Assembly (NCBI RefSeq): GCF_000969885.1
Contig: NZ_CP009501.1
Span: 3,045,877 to 3,109,876 of the forward strand
Source: Methanosarcina thermophila TM-1
Lineage (GTDB): Archaea > Halobacteriota > Methanosarcinia > Methanosarcinales > Methanosarcinaceae
Direction of reading: 5' to 3'
Length of the DNA: 64,000 bases
The translations under genes and the position numbers were made by a program. The notes below the pieces were generated by a model. It was not told the origin of the DNA and searched no databases. It was given only the letters and a program-made list of their open reading frames with translations. Positions within the stretch are counted from its first letter, which is position 1. Every line of letters begins with the position of its first letter. This document shows positions 9,382 to 36,912 of the stretch, piece by piece.

Positions 9382-9511
9382 GGTAAAAGAATCCGTGAGG
9401 GTTAGTATAATTTATATGTGTTTCTTTATTTTCTTCCTTGCTGTATATCTTTTCCAGTGGATATTCCCAATATTAAATAAAAAGAAAAAGCAGGATAAGG
9501 AATCCGGCTAA
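9380..9511 (+). CDS. Possible single-span small membrane protein
   Basis: A 43-codon frame starts on the complementary strand of the start of the lipid-kinase-like gene. It encodes a basic start, one hydrophobic helix (IIYMCFFIFFLAVYLF) and a lysine-rich tail (NKKKKQDKESG), which looks like a tail-anchored micropeptide. There is no good ribosome binding site and no family assignment, so it may be chance. Confidence 0.3.
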   Translation: MVKESVRVSIIYMCFFIFFLAVYLFQWIFPILNKKKKQDKESG

Positions 9512-9549
9512 TTTATCCGTACAGGATTCCATCCTTTGAAACTGAAATC

Positions 9550-15754: not shown

Positions 15755-16077
15755 AGCATACCCCCGCAAATATTAGATTCTGGTTAAAATTTAACAGACG
15801 AAATTTTGTAAATTTTATATCTCTCAAGGCTTTACTCCCAAGAAGCCATGAGATATATAAAATCTATTGTATAAAAAATATATATGGTGCGCGCGCACTG
15901 AGCAAAAAAGACATTTTGAGGGGAAACTTCTGATACGCTCTATTTGCAAAGTATGAATAGATCCAGAAGGCAATTTTGGAAAGAGTAGAAAAGGGTATGA
16001 AAAAGTAGAATAGAGTAGAAAAGAGTAGAAAAAGGTAGAAAAGAGTAGTATTGATCAGGAGTATTAAAAATATTAAG
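15755..16077. other. Intergenic region between aldehyde dehydrogenase and tRNA-Ala
   Basis: No gene is seen. It holds a TATA-rich stretch around 15850-15890, in the orientation expected for the dehydrogenase promoter or an unmapped transcript, and the purine repeat listed separately. Confidence 0.5.
15980..16050. repeat. Purine-rich tandem repeat (agtagaaaag-like)
   Basis: Seven or so imperfect units of agtagaaaag/aggtagaaaag follow one another, nearly pure purine on the + strand. The tract sits immediately downstream of tRNA-Ala, so that strand's transcript would end in a pyrimidine (U-rich) run. This could help terminate the tRNA transcript. Confidence 0.6.
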
Positions 16078-16149
16078 TGGACCGGTCGGGATTTGAACCC
16101 GAGGCCTCTACCATGCCAAGGTAGCGATCTTCCCCTGATCTACCGGCCC
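16078..16149 (-). tRNA. tRNA-Ala (anticodon GGC)
   Basis: The 72-base gene folds into a full cloverleaf. The 7-bp acceptor stem GGGCCGG/CCGGTCC contains the G3:U70 pair that defines alanine tRNAs. The D stem is GATC/GATC. The anticodon stem CTACC/GGTAG has loop TTGGCAT, so the anticodon is GGC. The T arm is TCGGG-TTCAAAT-CCCGA and the discriminator is A. The CCA end is not encoded, since CTT follows. A TATA box lies upstream. Confidence 0.97.
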
Positions 16150-16372: not shown

Positions 16373-16449
16373 GGGCCCGTAGCTTAGCCTGGCGGAGCGC
16401 ACGGCTGATAACCGTGAGGTCCTGCGTTCGAATCGCAGCGGGCCCACCA
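16373..16449 (+). tRNA. tRNA-Ile (anticodon GAT), copy 1
   Basis: A complete cloverleaf of 77 bases including an encoded CCA. The acceptor stem is GGGCCCG/CGGGCCC, the anticodon stem CACGG/CCGTG with loop CTGATAA (anticodon GAT), and the T arm CTGCG-TTCGAAT-CGCAG. The sequence is identical to the second copy 61 bases downstream. Confidence 0.97.
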
Positions 16450-16510: not shown

Positions 16511-16587
16511 GGGCCCGTAGCTTAGCCTGGCGGAGCGCACGGCTGATAACCGTGAGGTCCTGCGTTCGAATCGCAGCGGGCCCACCA
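16511..16587 (+). tRNA. tRNA-Ile (anticodon GAT), copy 2
   Basis: Identical in every base to copy 1, including the encoded CCA. The preceding bases ccatttg are also shared, whereas the spacer and the downstream sequence differ. Cotranscription from a promoter before copy 1 is likely because the spacer contains no clear TATA box. Confidence 0.97.
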
Positions 16588-21565: not shown

Positions 21566-22463
21566 AAGCTGCATGGTCGGGCAGGAGTATCCAGGAGTGG
21601 AGACCTCAACCCGTTATGTGTTTGACAGGATTGGAGTAGATTACTGTATTAACGATGAGCAGTCCTGCTGCACAGGAATAGGACATTATACTGACATCTT
21701 TGAGGGACTGACAACAATAGCTATTGCAGCCCGAAACTTCGCAGTCGCAAGAAGATGCGGCTATCCCAATATAACTTGCCTCTGTTCAACCTGTTATGCC
21801 ATAAACAAGGAGGCGTGTGAAGTTCTTAATACCAACACCGAAGTGCGGGAAAGAATTAACGCTATCTTCAGGGAACAGGGTCTTGAAAATCTTGTTTACG
21901 AAAAAGACGACATGAACCCGAGGACTAACTTCTACCATGCAGTAGAGATTCTCTTAAGCAAAGTCAACGAGATCAAGAAGCAGAAGAAATTCGATTTCTC
22001 AGGGACCAAAGCTGCAGCCCACCATGCTTGCCACTATTATAAAGTTAAGTATCTCGATGTCCTCGGAAATCCTGAAAATCCCCAGTTAATAGATACCATA
22101 GCTGCAGTCTGTGGAGCCGATCCTGTGCGCTGGTACGAAGACCGCACTCTTACTTGCGGGATGGGCTTTTCCCAACTCCACCTCAACAAAGACACCTCGC
22201 TTCAGGTGACAAAGACAAAACTCGATAGCCTACAGAAAGCAGGTGTGGAACTTATGATCCACATGTGCCCGAACTGCCATATCCAGTATGACCGCTACCA
22301 GCCTGTTATTGAGGAAGAGTTTGACGTAAAGTATGATATGGTTCACATGAATATTGCCCAGTTCGTAGCACTTTCTATGGGTGCTGACCCCTACAAAGTG
22401 TGCGGCTTCCAGACTCATTCCGTGCCTCTTGAGGAATTCCTGGAAATACACGGGATAATCTGA
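21492..22463 (+). CDS. hdrB: Heterodisulfide reductase subunit B with altered second CCG motif
   Basis: HdrB reduces the CoM-S-S-CoB heterodisulfide at two non-cubane [4Fe-4S] clusters, each held by a CCG motif. The first is complete: C27, C59-C60, C98-x-x-C101. In the second, C180, C222, C259 and C262 are present but the first cysteine of the CC pair is Thr221 (TLTCGMGF). I use ATG 21492, since the C27 segment (LLLFKSCMVG) needs upstream residues; this overlaps hdrC by 74 bases. No clear ribosome binding site precedes it, so coupling to hdrC is probable. 323 residues. Confidence 0.92.
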   Translation: MKIKAETSALKAIESIPDSQLLLFKSCMVGQEYPGVETSTRYVFDRIGVDYCINDEQSCCTGIGHYTDIFEGLTTIAIAARNFAVARRCGYPNITCLCSTCYAINKEACEVLNTNTEVRERINAIFREQGLENLVYEKDDMNPRTNFYHAVEILLSKVNEIKKQKKFDFSGTKAAAHHACHYYKVKYLDVLGNPENPQLIDTIAAVCGADPVRWYEDRTLTCGMGFSQLHLNKDTSLQVTKTKLDSLQKAGVELMIHMCPNCHIQYDRYQPVIEEEFDVKYDMVHMNIAQFVALSMGADPYKVCGFQTHSVPLEEFLEIHGII

Positions 22464-22679
22464 AAAATCCAGGTTTTGATGTTAAATCTATATTACTTTC
22501 TTACTTTTTTAGGGTCTTCTGGATTTAAATAAAAATAAAAAATAAAAGTTCCGTTTTTCTAGTTAGCCAATTTTACAATTTTTAAGTGCTTCTCCCTGGG
22601 ATTTTCCTTCTATCTAAGGTTTTACCCTTTCTCATGGCCTCGCTCTGTCTCCAAAGTTCTGCCTTAATCCGAATTTCCT

Positions 22680-33122: not shown

Positions 33123-33491
33123 TCAGAAACTGATAATCAGCTGGTTTTCTTCGGTATATGTCAACAGGAGCTCAGCTACATCTTTTGAGCAGATGAACTC
33201 GATTCCAGGAATTAACTCTTCTTTCTTAAGCCCGATCATGTCCGAGGCAAGCTGGCAGCATCGGAACTCTACTCCCATGTCAATGCATTCCTGAACAGAA
33301 ACATCATATTTGGGTGATCCTCTTGTTTTGTCTTTCTTTGCAAGCAACACTCCCATAGGTCCCCATAGGATAACAAGTACGTCAAGCCCCTTACTCCGAT
33401 AATACTTCGCAAATTTAAGAGTTTCCTGTGGGCTGGTGCTCTCGTAAACCATGTTTTTGAGCAGCAGTAGTACCTTTTCGACTTTTGTCAT
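33123..33491 (-). CDS. DsrE/DsrF-like protein
   Basis: A 122-residue protein with the DsrE-like pattern: VLLLLKNMVYESTSPQETLK, an alternating Rossmann-like core with DVLVILWGPMGVLLAKKD, then ECIDMGVEFRCCQLASDMIG and a C-terminal strand. DsrE-type proteins carry or handle sulfur in some bacteria; archaeal ones are uncharacterised. It has cysteines Cys78-Cys79 (RCCQL) and one near the end (FICSKD), which could bear sulfur. It stands alone with long AT-rich spacers on both sides, so context gives no clue. Confidence 0.8.
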   Translation of the reverse strand: MTKVEKVLLLLKNMVYESTSPQETLKFAKYYRSKGLDVLVILWGPMGVLLAKKDKTRGSPKYDVSVQECIDMGVEFRCCQLASDMIGLKKEELIPGIEFICSKDVAELLLTYTEENQLIISF

Positions 33492-33983
33492 AAGAACTCC
33501 AGATCTGAATAATACATTTCTGAAACAGATTACCTAGATGTATATAAAGTTTCACATTGAAAAAGCGAGTCAATATTTTTTCACATTATTTAAATAATTT
33601 TGTTTATCTATAAGGCATTCTGTGAAGTCTGGATACTTACATCTGGTCAACTGATTCAATCGCAATGTAAAATTAGACAATTGTTTTATCACCTCACAGT
33701 TATCCTGAACTTTTTGACGCCAAAAATTTTTTAAAGTTGGAGGCTAATTCTAAATGATTCGTATTGGAAATTTCTACTTTGCAAGAGTCCTCAATCTAAG
33801 CTGGGCAATTTATATATTTTCCTTCTTATTGTATTTTCCTTCGTATTGTAAACTGAAAATCTATTTTTGCCGTCATTGAAATATAAAAATTCCGGTATAA
33901 TGAGAAACTATTTCAGGAAAATAGGTTTTACAGTTCGCAGATTAAAGTCGGAACTTGAGTTTACATATAAACATTAACGTGAA
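33492..33983. other. AT-rich intergenic region upstream of the DsrE-like gene
   Basis: No gene is seen. The stretch ends at the TATA box of the hairpin-flanked element listed next. AT-rich promoter-like sequence (agatgtatataaagtttc near 33536-33553) serves the DsrE-like gene. Confidence 0.55.
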
Positions 33984-33992
33984 TTTATATAA
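33984..33992 (+). promoter_or_regulatory. TATA box in front of the hairpin-flanked element
   Basis: tttatataa is a good archaeal box A. About 26 bases on, transcription would begin in or near the first hairpin of the element at 34003, reading through it on the + strand. Confidence 0.5.
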
Positions 33993-34002
33993 GAGCGTAA
34001 AA

Positions 34003-34195
34003 CTCCTGAGTCTTTATCTCAGGGGTTAAACAGGTCTTGAATAAATGCACTGTAACAGGTTCGTTTTCATGTAAAGCCGATACAAACGAATGGACAACTC
34101 AGTAGGATAGGAACTGCCCGATTCGAGCCTATTTGATATGCCAAAAGGTCATCTGTGAACCAGGAAGCTGCTAAATAAGTTTAGCAGTAGTTCAC
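34003..34195 (+). mobile_element. Non-coding element with hairpin near each end, IS200/IS605-like (candidate reRNA/omega-RNA gene)
   Basis: The left hairpin is ctcctgag-tctttat-ctcagggg (34003-34025). The right end is gaagctgctaaa-taag-tttagcag-tagttcac, with hairpin 34168-34187 followed by the tagttcac tail at 34188-34195. A subterminal hairpin next to a conserved ...TTCAC-type tail is how many archaeal IS200/IS605 and IS1341 elements end, and TnpB guide RNAs derive from that end. A third stem, ttcgttt/aaacgaa (about 34059-34090), lies between. No tnpA or tnpB is present. It may be a non-autonomous derivative, a remnant, or a domesticated RNA gene. Homology was not checked. Confidence 0.5.
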
Positions 34196-34302
34196 GAGTC
34201 TAATCTTAAGATGTCCCGTTTTGAGATGTTCGTAAAAACCGCAAAAATAAGCTTAATTTGAGCAATAAAGGATATTTTTTATGAAAAAAGGTAAGCAGAA
34301 GC

Positions 34303-36912
34303 TTACCTTACAATCACAATAACCGCACCTCTGACTTCAAGCACATCGACCTCTCTGCCGCCAGAGATCACTTCTTTCCTTATCTCCACGGCTTCGGGTT
34401 CAAGTTCGATCGACTCGTCATTTACAATAACAGTTATTTTTCCGGATACCTTCTGGGCTTCAACAGCAGCAGGGTCTTCTGCCTTGAGAGCTTTCACGAC
34501 AGCGCCTGCATCTTTTCTGAATCTCGGGCCCAGGATACCCATATTTGGTTTTACTTCCACTGGTACATATTCAAAGGAAGGAGCACCTTCCATCAACTCA
34601 ACTTCCGAGTTCGTTGCACCTGCGATATCTCCTGTATCTATATCGACATTATAAATCTCAAGCTTTTTCAGAGGAGCATTAAGTGCCATTCCAAGCTCGG
34701 ACTTGTACCTGCGGACCTCACCAGTTATATCCTTGATAAGCTCTCCAGCGGCTTCGGCTTCTTCGTTTATGAAGCTCTCATTGACTGCAGGCCAGGCCTG
34801 TGTATGGACACTTTCATCGCTAAACCTGGAATAAAGTTCCTCCGCAAAGAAGGGTATAAATGGTGCCAGCAGAAGCGAAAGAGTCTTAATTGTCTGGTAG
34901 AGCACATACTGCGCTGCTCTCCTGCCTTCAGGCTCACCGCCGTAAAGTCTGCCTTTTACGAGTTCCAGATAGTTATCGGCAAGGACTTCCCAGGCAAAAC
35001 CTCTTATAGCCTTAAATGTGGAATCAAACTGGTATGCATCAAGCTCTTTTGTCGCAGTGTCCACAAGCTTGTTCAGCTTACTCAGAAGCCACCTGTCGAT
35101 TGTACGGAGGGAATCTGTTGGGAATTTCTCGGCATCTTCAGGTCCAAAGTCCTTCAGATGAGACATTGAGAATCTGTAGATACTCCACATCTTCTGAAGG
35201 AAGCGAGAAGCTGAGACCACATCCTTCCAGCGGAACATTATATCCGAGCCTGTTGAGCCGCCAACAGCACCCCACTGCCTGAAAGCATCGGCACTGTATT
35301 GTGAGACAACCTCTTCTGGGGAAATTATGTTTCCAAGGGACTTGCTCATTTTATGACCATCAGGCCCGAGCACCATGCCATTGATAACTATAGAATCCCA
35401 GGGCTTTTTCCCTTCAAGGGCAAGGCTCCGCAGGATCGTGTAAAAAGCCCAGGTTCTAATAATATCATGACCCTGGGGACGAATCTGTGCAGGCAGACGG
35501 AGTTCATGTTCGCTTTCCCAGCCCGTGACATGTAATGCCGTAATAGAGGAGTCCATCCAGGTGTCCAGCACATCGGTTTCAGGTTCAAATTCGGTTGAAC
35601 CGCAGGCGCAGGCTTTCTTCGGGGCTGCTTCATTCGGGTCAATCGGGAGCCAGCTCTCTTCTGCAACCATTACTTCCCCACATGATTTACAGTACCAGAT
35701 TGGGATTGGGGTTGCAAAGACTCTCTGCCTGGATATACACCAATCCCATTCCATAGTGCCTGTCCAGTTCTGGAGTCTGACTTTCATATACTCAGGATAC
35801 CATTTGATCTCATCTGCAGCTTTCAGGATGCCGTCATTGTCAATCTTTACGAACCACTGGGGCTCTGAAAGAATCTCGATGGGGGTGTCGCAGCGCCAGC
35901 AGAGCCCAACATTCTGCTCCAGAGGTTTCTGGTCATAAAGGAAACCTGCAGCTCTCAGGTCAGCAATGACAGCTTCCCTGCATTCTTCAATGCTCATACC
36001 TTCATACTTGCCTGCTGCTTTTGTCATCCTGCCCTGCTTGTCGATTGCTTTTATAAGGGGCAGCTGGTATTTAACCCACCAGCGAACATCCTGTTTGTCT
36101 CCGAAAGTACAGATCATTACGGCACCTGTACCGAATTCAGGCTCAACATCCTCATCGGCAATTATGGTCACTTTCTGCCCAAAGATAGGTACTGTAATTT
36201 CCTGACCGACGTACTGTTTGTAACGTTCATCTTCGGGATTTACTGCAACTGCAACACAGGCTGCCATAAGTTCGGGTCTCGTGGTTGCAATGTCTACCTT
36301 GTCAAAATGGACAAAATTAAGCTTTGTTTGCCTTGATTCGTACTCAACTTCTGCAAAAGCAATGGCAGTTTCACAGCGGGGGCACCAGTTGACAGGGTGT
36401 TCTTCGTGATATATGTATCCATCATTGTACATCCTGACAAAAGATTTCTGTGTTTTTACAAAGTATGATGGATCCATGGTAACGAATTCGTTGCTCCAGT
36501 CGACGGAAAAGCCAAGGCGTAGCATTGTTTTTCGCATCTTTTCGATATTTTCTGCGGTCAGTTCCCTGCACATCCTGCGGAACTCGGCACGTGGAACCTC
36601 ATTTTTCGTTATACCGTGAATCTCTTCTACCTTGACTTCAGTTGGAAGACCATGGCAGTCCCAGCCCTGGGGGAACATCACATTGTACCCGCGCATACGT
36701 TTGTATCGGGCAATAAAGTCAATATAGCACCAGTTAAGCGCATTTCCGATATGAAAATTGCCTGTAGGATAGGGAGGTGGGGTGTCAATAATATACTGGG
36801 GGCGGGGGTCCTCTTCCCAGTTGAAATGGTACATGGAGAGGTTCCATTTCTCCATCCACTTTTCCTCAACCTCTTTTGCATTGTATTCTTTCGGGATTTC
36901 TGATTCTGTCAT
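34303..36912 (-). CDS. valS: Valyl-tRNA synthetase
   Basis: Charges tRNA-Val. The class I motif HIGN is in [16 protein letters not shown], and KMSKS is in [12 protein letters not shown] zinc-binding region is visible ([14 protein letters not shown] ... [13 protein letters not shown]), and the editing domain lies in between. The length of 869 residues is right for archaeal ValS. ATG 36912 follows GGAGTG. It is a single-gene unit, with the hairpin-flanked element 108 bases beyond its stop. Confidence 0.97.

Follow-up and report, generated by a model that had tools for sequence, protein, structure and literature searches.

Location and ends of the element

The window is a stretch of 64,000 nucleotides from Methanosarcina thermophila TM-1 (GCF_000969885.1, NZ_CP009501.1; genome G000 of the analysis). 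A non-coding element, which we describe on the plus strand throughout, lies in the spacer that separates a DsrE-like gene (33123-33491, minus strand) from the 3' end of valS (34303-36912, minus strand). No open reading frame of at least 70 amino acids covers the stretch 33984-34195, Rfam at both gathering and permissive thresholds reports nothing relevant for it, and neither tnpA nor tnpB is found close to the element, an absence that the first-pass annotation had already pointed out. A bacterial promoter scan, unsuited to archaea, adds nothing here. Of 200 shuffled versions of the 212-nt stretch, 2 fold as well as the original (z -2.57). A terminator-like hairpin of valS lies at 34288-34309, separate from the element. 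Elsewhere in the window there are tandem tRNA-Ile (GAT) genes with equal Rfam scores (16373-16449 and 16511-16587, 61 bases apart), adjoined by a divergent tRNA-Ala (GGC) gene at 16077-16149.

The first-pass annotation described a hairpin-ended unit of about 195 bp. The unit is real, but its proper extent, given by the alignment to empty sites and by full-length relatives, is 33989-34195 (207 bp). The hairpins lie where it placed them, and the third stem and the tail that it listed are also present. The left end (33989-34028) carries a subterminal hairpin at 34003-34025 with arms CTCCTGAG/CTCAGGGG, and the right end carries another at 34168-34187, a perfect 8-bp inverted repeat with arms CTGCTAAA/TTTAGCAG and 8/8 pairs. 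The internal stem GGTTCGTTT...AAACGAATGG is helix 1 of the covariation analysis below. The right terminus TAGTTCAC occupies 34188-34195 and stops there. The element begins as TTTAT|ATAAGAGCG... and finishes as ...GTAGTTCAC, with subterminal hairpins at both ends and without terminal inverted repeats.

The ends resemble those of complete Methanosarcina IS605 elements. Window positions 33982-34028 match their left ends, with 86-88% identity over 49 nt to L029 and L030, which are the same IS605 copies as L033 and L034. Past the left-end match, L033 and L034 carry first a Y1 tnpA, encoded on the opposite strand, and next tnpB, which is the IS605 layout, and their right ends have the form GAAGC-hairpin-GTAGTTCAC, as in the window copy. 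The left end of the family to which the window copy belongs (see below) matches L034 with E 3e-17 and L033 with E 5e-16; the right end of the family matches L033 (E 1e-7), L069 (E 1e-7) and L072 (E 4e-8). Judged by these matches, the two ends are homologous to those of complete IS605 elements.

Immediately before the element, at 33984-33988, is the pentamer TTTAT, which is the target site of IS605 and corresponds to the TAM. A left-end profile from which the target bases were excluded recovers 41 distinct left ends in unrelated flanks; of these, 34 have TTTAT just upstream, with hardly any variation in offset. The proposal that the element has its own TATA box, TTTATATAA at 33984-33992, does not survive this result: because TTTAT is the target that precedes 34/41 left ends in unrelated flanks, these nine bases are the insertion target plus the left-end linker and are no evidence of a TATA box. 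Comparison with the orthologous valS/DsrE spacers of other species (rather than other strains) shows three empty sites, in G018, G022 and G010, where the element is missing and the retained TTTAT is joined straight to the counterpart of the window right flank. This arrangement indicates a clean insertion 3' of TTTAT, without target duplication, as expected of the IS605 family.

A family of gene-less elements

The interior of the window copy is common to elements about 342 bp long, or 347 bp if the target is counted, which leaves no room for tnpA or tnpB. The loci that we fetched contain 24 distinct copies that are near full length and gene-less; they come from about a dozen genomes of Methanosarcina. 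In these copies, interior and ends show about the same conservation between species. In the M. thermophila genome itself there are one close copy and some relics. G025 holds roughly a dozen of these elements as well as about 30 lower-scoring right ends, many of them with equal score; one of these right ends we traced to a complete-looking IS605 (L044), in which a left end is accompanied by tnpA and the beginning of tnpB. A core-motif scan of the genome collection hits six Methanosarcina records and one unrelated bacterium, the latter taken as chance. The dispersal of the copies suggests that the family is mobile. In the 5' part of the interior (profile positions ~110-230) we see no recognisable tnpB and no part of any complete IS605. 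This region (profile ~111-230, for instance L005:1430-1550) carries a nearly invariant CATGTAAAGC, and we do not recognise a parent for it among complete IS605 elements.

The window copy lacks profile positions ~49-171. In the nhmmer alignment (L001), profile positions 10-48 and 172-347 adjoin; an interior deletion of about 123 bp has left its scar at 34024-34035, an approximate position for the breakpoint. The nearest species, G021, has the same copy at the orthologous site with the same interior deletion, and therefore both insertion and deletion predate the split between the two species. The right terminus has mutated to GTAGTTTAC in G021.

An alternative history is that a full tnpA/tnpB IS605 inserted here and lost its genes in place, as opposed to the insertion of a pre-existing tnpB-less element. 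Such relics do exist in this genome (L120/L157, a tnpB scrap plus right end), but from 34032 onwards the window interior matches the tnpB-less family throughout (79% in L003 and L004) and finds no match in the interior of complete IS605 elements, so we regard gene loss in place as very unlikely. The relic L120 (C1:2565935-2566114, minus strand) is a truncated IS605 with the last 23-27 tnpB codons and a well-preserved right end with GTAGTTCAC. Another element, L122 (C1 ~22236-22650, minus strand), is PATE-like (see the last section), with about 400 bp, a TTTAT target, IS605 ends and a different interior. As IS605 relics, this copy near C1:22236 and a further one near C1:855979 are weaker than L120.

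The family is apparently unnamed: in a literature search thin on subscription papers we found no description of a Methanosarcina MITE or PATE, or of an orphan omega-RNA. TnpB work on Geobacillus reportedly mentioned gene-less IS605 relatives, and for this reason we do not claim the idea of such relatives as new.

A guide-RNA-like scaffold and its decay

The RNA-like interior of the window copy has two parts. The 5' part (34032-34087), delimited from alignment A1 and its pair counts, has a stem TTCGTTT/AAACGAA around the conserved motif, with a 3' arm that extends a few bases beyond 34087. The second part (34088-34195), delimited by covariance model R1 and a pair tally, is a decayed scaffold of omega-RNA/reRNA type together with the right end. 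R1 was built from 21 tnpB-less right halves, with the window and G021 left out, and it matches the window with E 2.7e-15. In complete elements, too, it has matches, placed at the stop codon of tnpB: L069 (E 1.5e-10), L033 (E 1.1e-8), L072 (E 1.4e-8), L034 (E 5e-5) and L071 (E 5.4e-5), the last in a genome outside Methanosarcina. A further R1 match at window positions 9457-9538 (E 0.0045) is without the GTAGTTCAC terminus and we dropped it as chance. In ISDra2, the reRNA comes from the tnpB 3' end and the right end, with a guide of about 16 nt taken from the flank (PMC8612924), and the R1 matches in complete IS605 elements fall at this same position. Because a model made from tnpB-less elements matches both the window and positions directly behind the tnpB stop, we identify the right half, on homology grounds, as an omega-RNA/reRNA scaffold joined to the right end. 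A lack of resemblance between the last 60 bases and the right ends of IS605-type elements would have counted against the first-pass annotation; complete IS605 right ends do match (E 1.5e-10 to 5e-5), so its proposal is not refuted on this point. The bases after 34195, GAGTCTAATCTTAAGA at 34196-34211, do stand in guide position, again as the first-pass annotation proposed.

The structure also has covariation support. Standard pairs make up 95.4% of the pair cells in the 24 copies, and changes on both sides are seen in 64 cells, compared with 21.8 +/- 4.2 in shuffles and with 3-7 when partners are slid by 1-3 columns. Because the copies are related, these cells represent a smaller number of independent events, and the structure itself comes from the alignment in which the changes were counted. 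As many as 51/64 double-sided changes are outside the right-end hairpin, in helices 1, 3, 4 and 5, and therefore the covariation signal is not only that of the DNA hairpin of TnpA.

At this locus the scaffold has decayed. The window copy keeps 27/31 pairs of the A1 structure and the G021 copy keeps 30/31; the four pairs lost in the window copy are in helices 3, 4, 5 and 6. Between the two species, identity is 90.5% in the element, 89.4% in the left flank and 92.2% in the right flank, so that in this one species pair we see no purifying selection above that of the flanks. An exact-match search of the genome with the guide-position flank returns only the site itself, plus three matches with 2 mismatches (4 in total, versus 5 for the reversed control). 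As there is no other exact match, it gives no evidence of a second target. We find no TnpB in the genome with PF01385 (no match), PF07282 or a TnpB query, the last giving two scraps only, of 27 and 33 residues. The one PF07282 match, below cut-off, is a NUDIX-type zinc ribbon and was rejected. There is one Y1 TnpA, only ~30% identical to the cognate TnpA.

These results bear on the possibility that the locus is an orphan functional guide-RNA gene (a trans-acting omega-RNA) or a domesticated small RNA. The homology to omega-RNA scaffolds, the compensatory changes found family-wide in tnpB-less copies and the retention of the copy in two sister species would all agree with it. Nevertheless, the genome has no TnpB, the element diverges as fast as its flanks, 4/31 pairs are lost and the guide has no second exact target; we consider such a gene highly improbable, and the earlier idea of domestication is not supported, given the first three of these points. 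A working guide RNA at this locus is unlikely, and the window copy is a relic. The remaining alternative, that the hairpins arose by chance in AT-rich intergenic DNA or belong to the ordinary regulation or termination of valS or the DsrE-like gene, could appeal to the intergenic position and the terminator-like hairpin nearby, but homologous copies at unrelated sites in many genomes, the separate terminator-like site of valS and the relatives without the element at this locus leave it a negligible probability.

Proposed history and comparison with known systems

We are confident that 33989-34195 is a non-autonomous IS200/IS605 element of the PATE type, in a degenerate copy with an internal deletion. 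The initial guess is thus largely right: both an IS200/IS605 derivative and a miniature mobile element are supported. In the history that we propose, the common ancestor of M. thermophila and G021 would have received a tnpB-less element of the ~342-bp family. By analogy with the mechanism of IS608 and ISDra2, an IS605 Y1 TnpA acting in trans would have excised the element elsewhere as single-stranded DNA by means of the two end hairpins, and would have inserted it 3' of TTTAT, downstream of valS, where target, ends and empty site are observed. From an intact element, an RNA could have been produced with a 3' end copied from the right flank. With such an RNA, a TnpB would be guided to the TTTAT site left empty by excision, where the element would be restored. 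About 123 bp would then have been lost before the species split, TnpB would have disappeared from the genome, and the copy would have been drifting since.

For copies in other genomes, we tentatively raise a further reading, with the odds against it, in which the ~342-bp family keeps an omega-RNA that is loaded in trans by a resident IS605 TnpB. The compensatory changes, and an interior about as conserved as the ends, fit this reading. If true, a gene-less hitch-hiker would be using the TnpA of a host element to move and its TnpB for restoration at its own site. At this locus, the analysis accounts for a prominent non-coding stretch next to valS and sets right a mistaken TATA box. More generally, a PATE family of Methanosarcina in which one half is omega-RNA-like and conserved in structure offers a natural test of whether gene-less elements exploit TnpB guide-RNA homing in trans.

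Three known systems are the closest comparisons. The complete Methanosarcina IS605 elements (L033, L034 and L069, with tnpA divergent from tnpB) share with the window copy the left end, the right-end hairpin, the GTAGTTCAC terminus and the TTTAT target; unlike them, the element has neither tnpA nor tnpB and its interior is mostly different. The reRNA/omega-RNA of TnpB in ISDra2 (PMC8612924) likewise spans the right end, has a structured scaffold with the guide position in the right flank, and shares its target motif with transposition. The difference is that here tnpB is absent both beside the element and from the genome, and the scaffold, that of a putative RNA, is decayed in this copy. Finally, the palindrome-associated transposable elements (PATEs) of Haloquadratum walsbyi, some of them derived from IS605 by core deletion, are transposase-free, with IS605-type subterminal palindromes and a short target sequence, and without terminal inverted repeats or target duplication (PMC3119063), all as in the element described here. 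Unlike them, the Methanosarcina element belongs to another family, and in it an omega-RNA scaffold with compensatory changes can be recognised; omega-RNAs had yet to be discovered when the PATE paper appeared in 2011.
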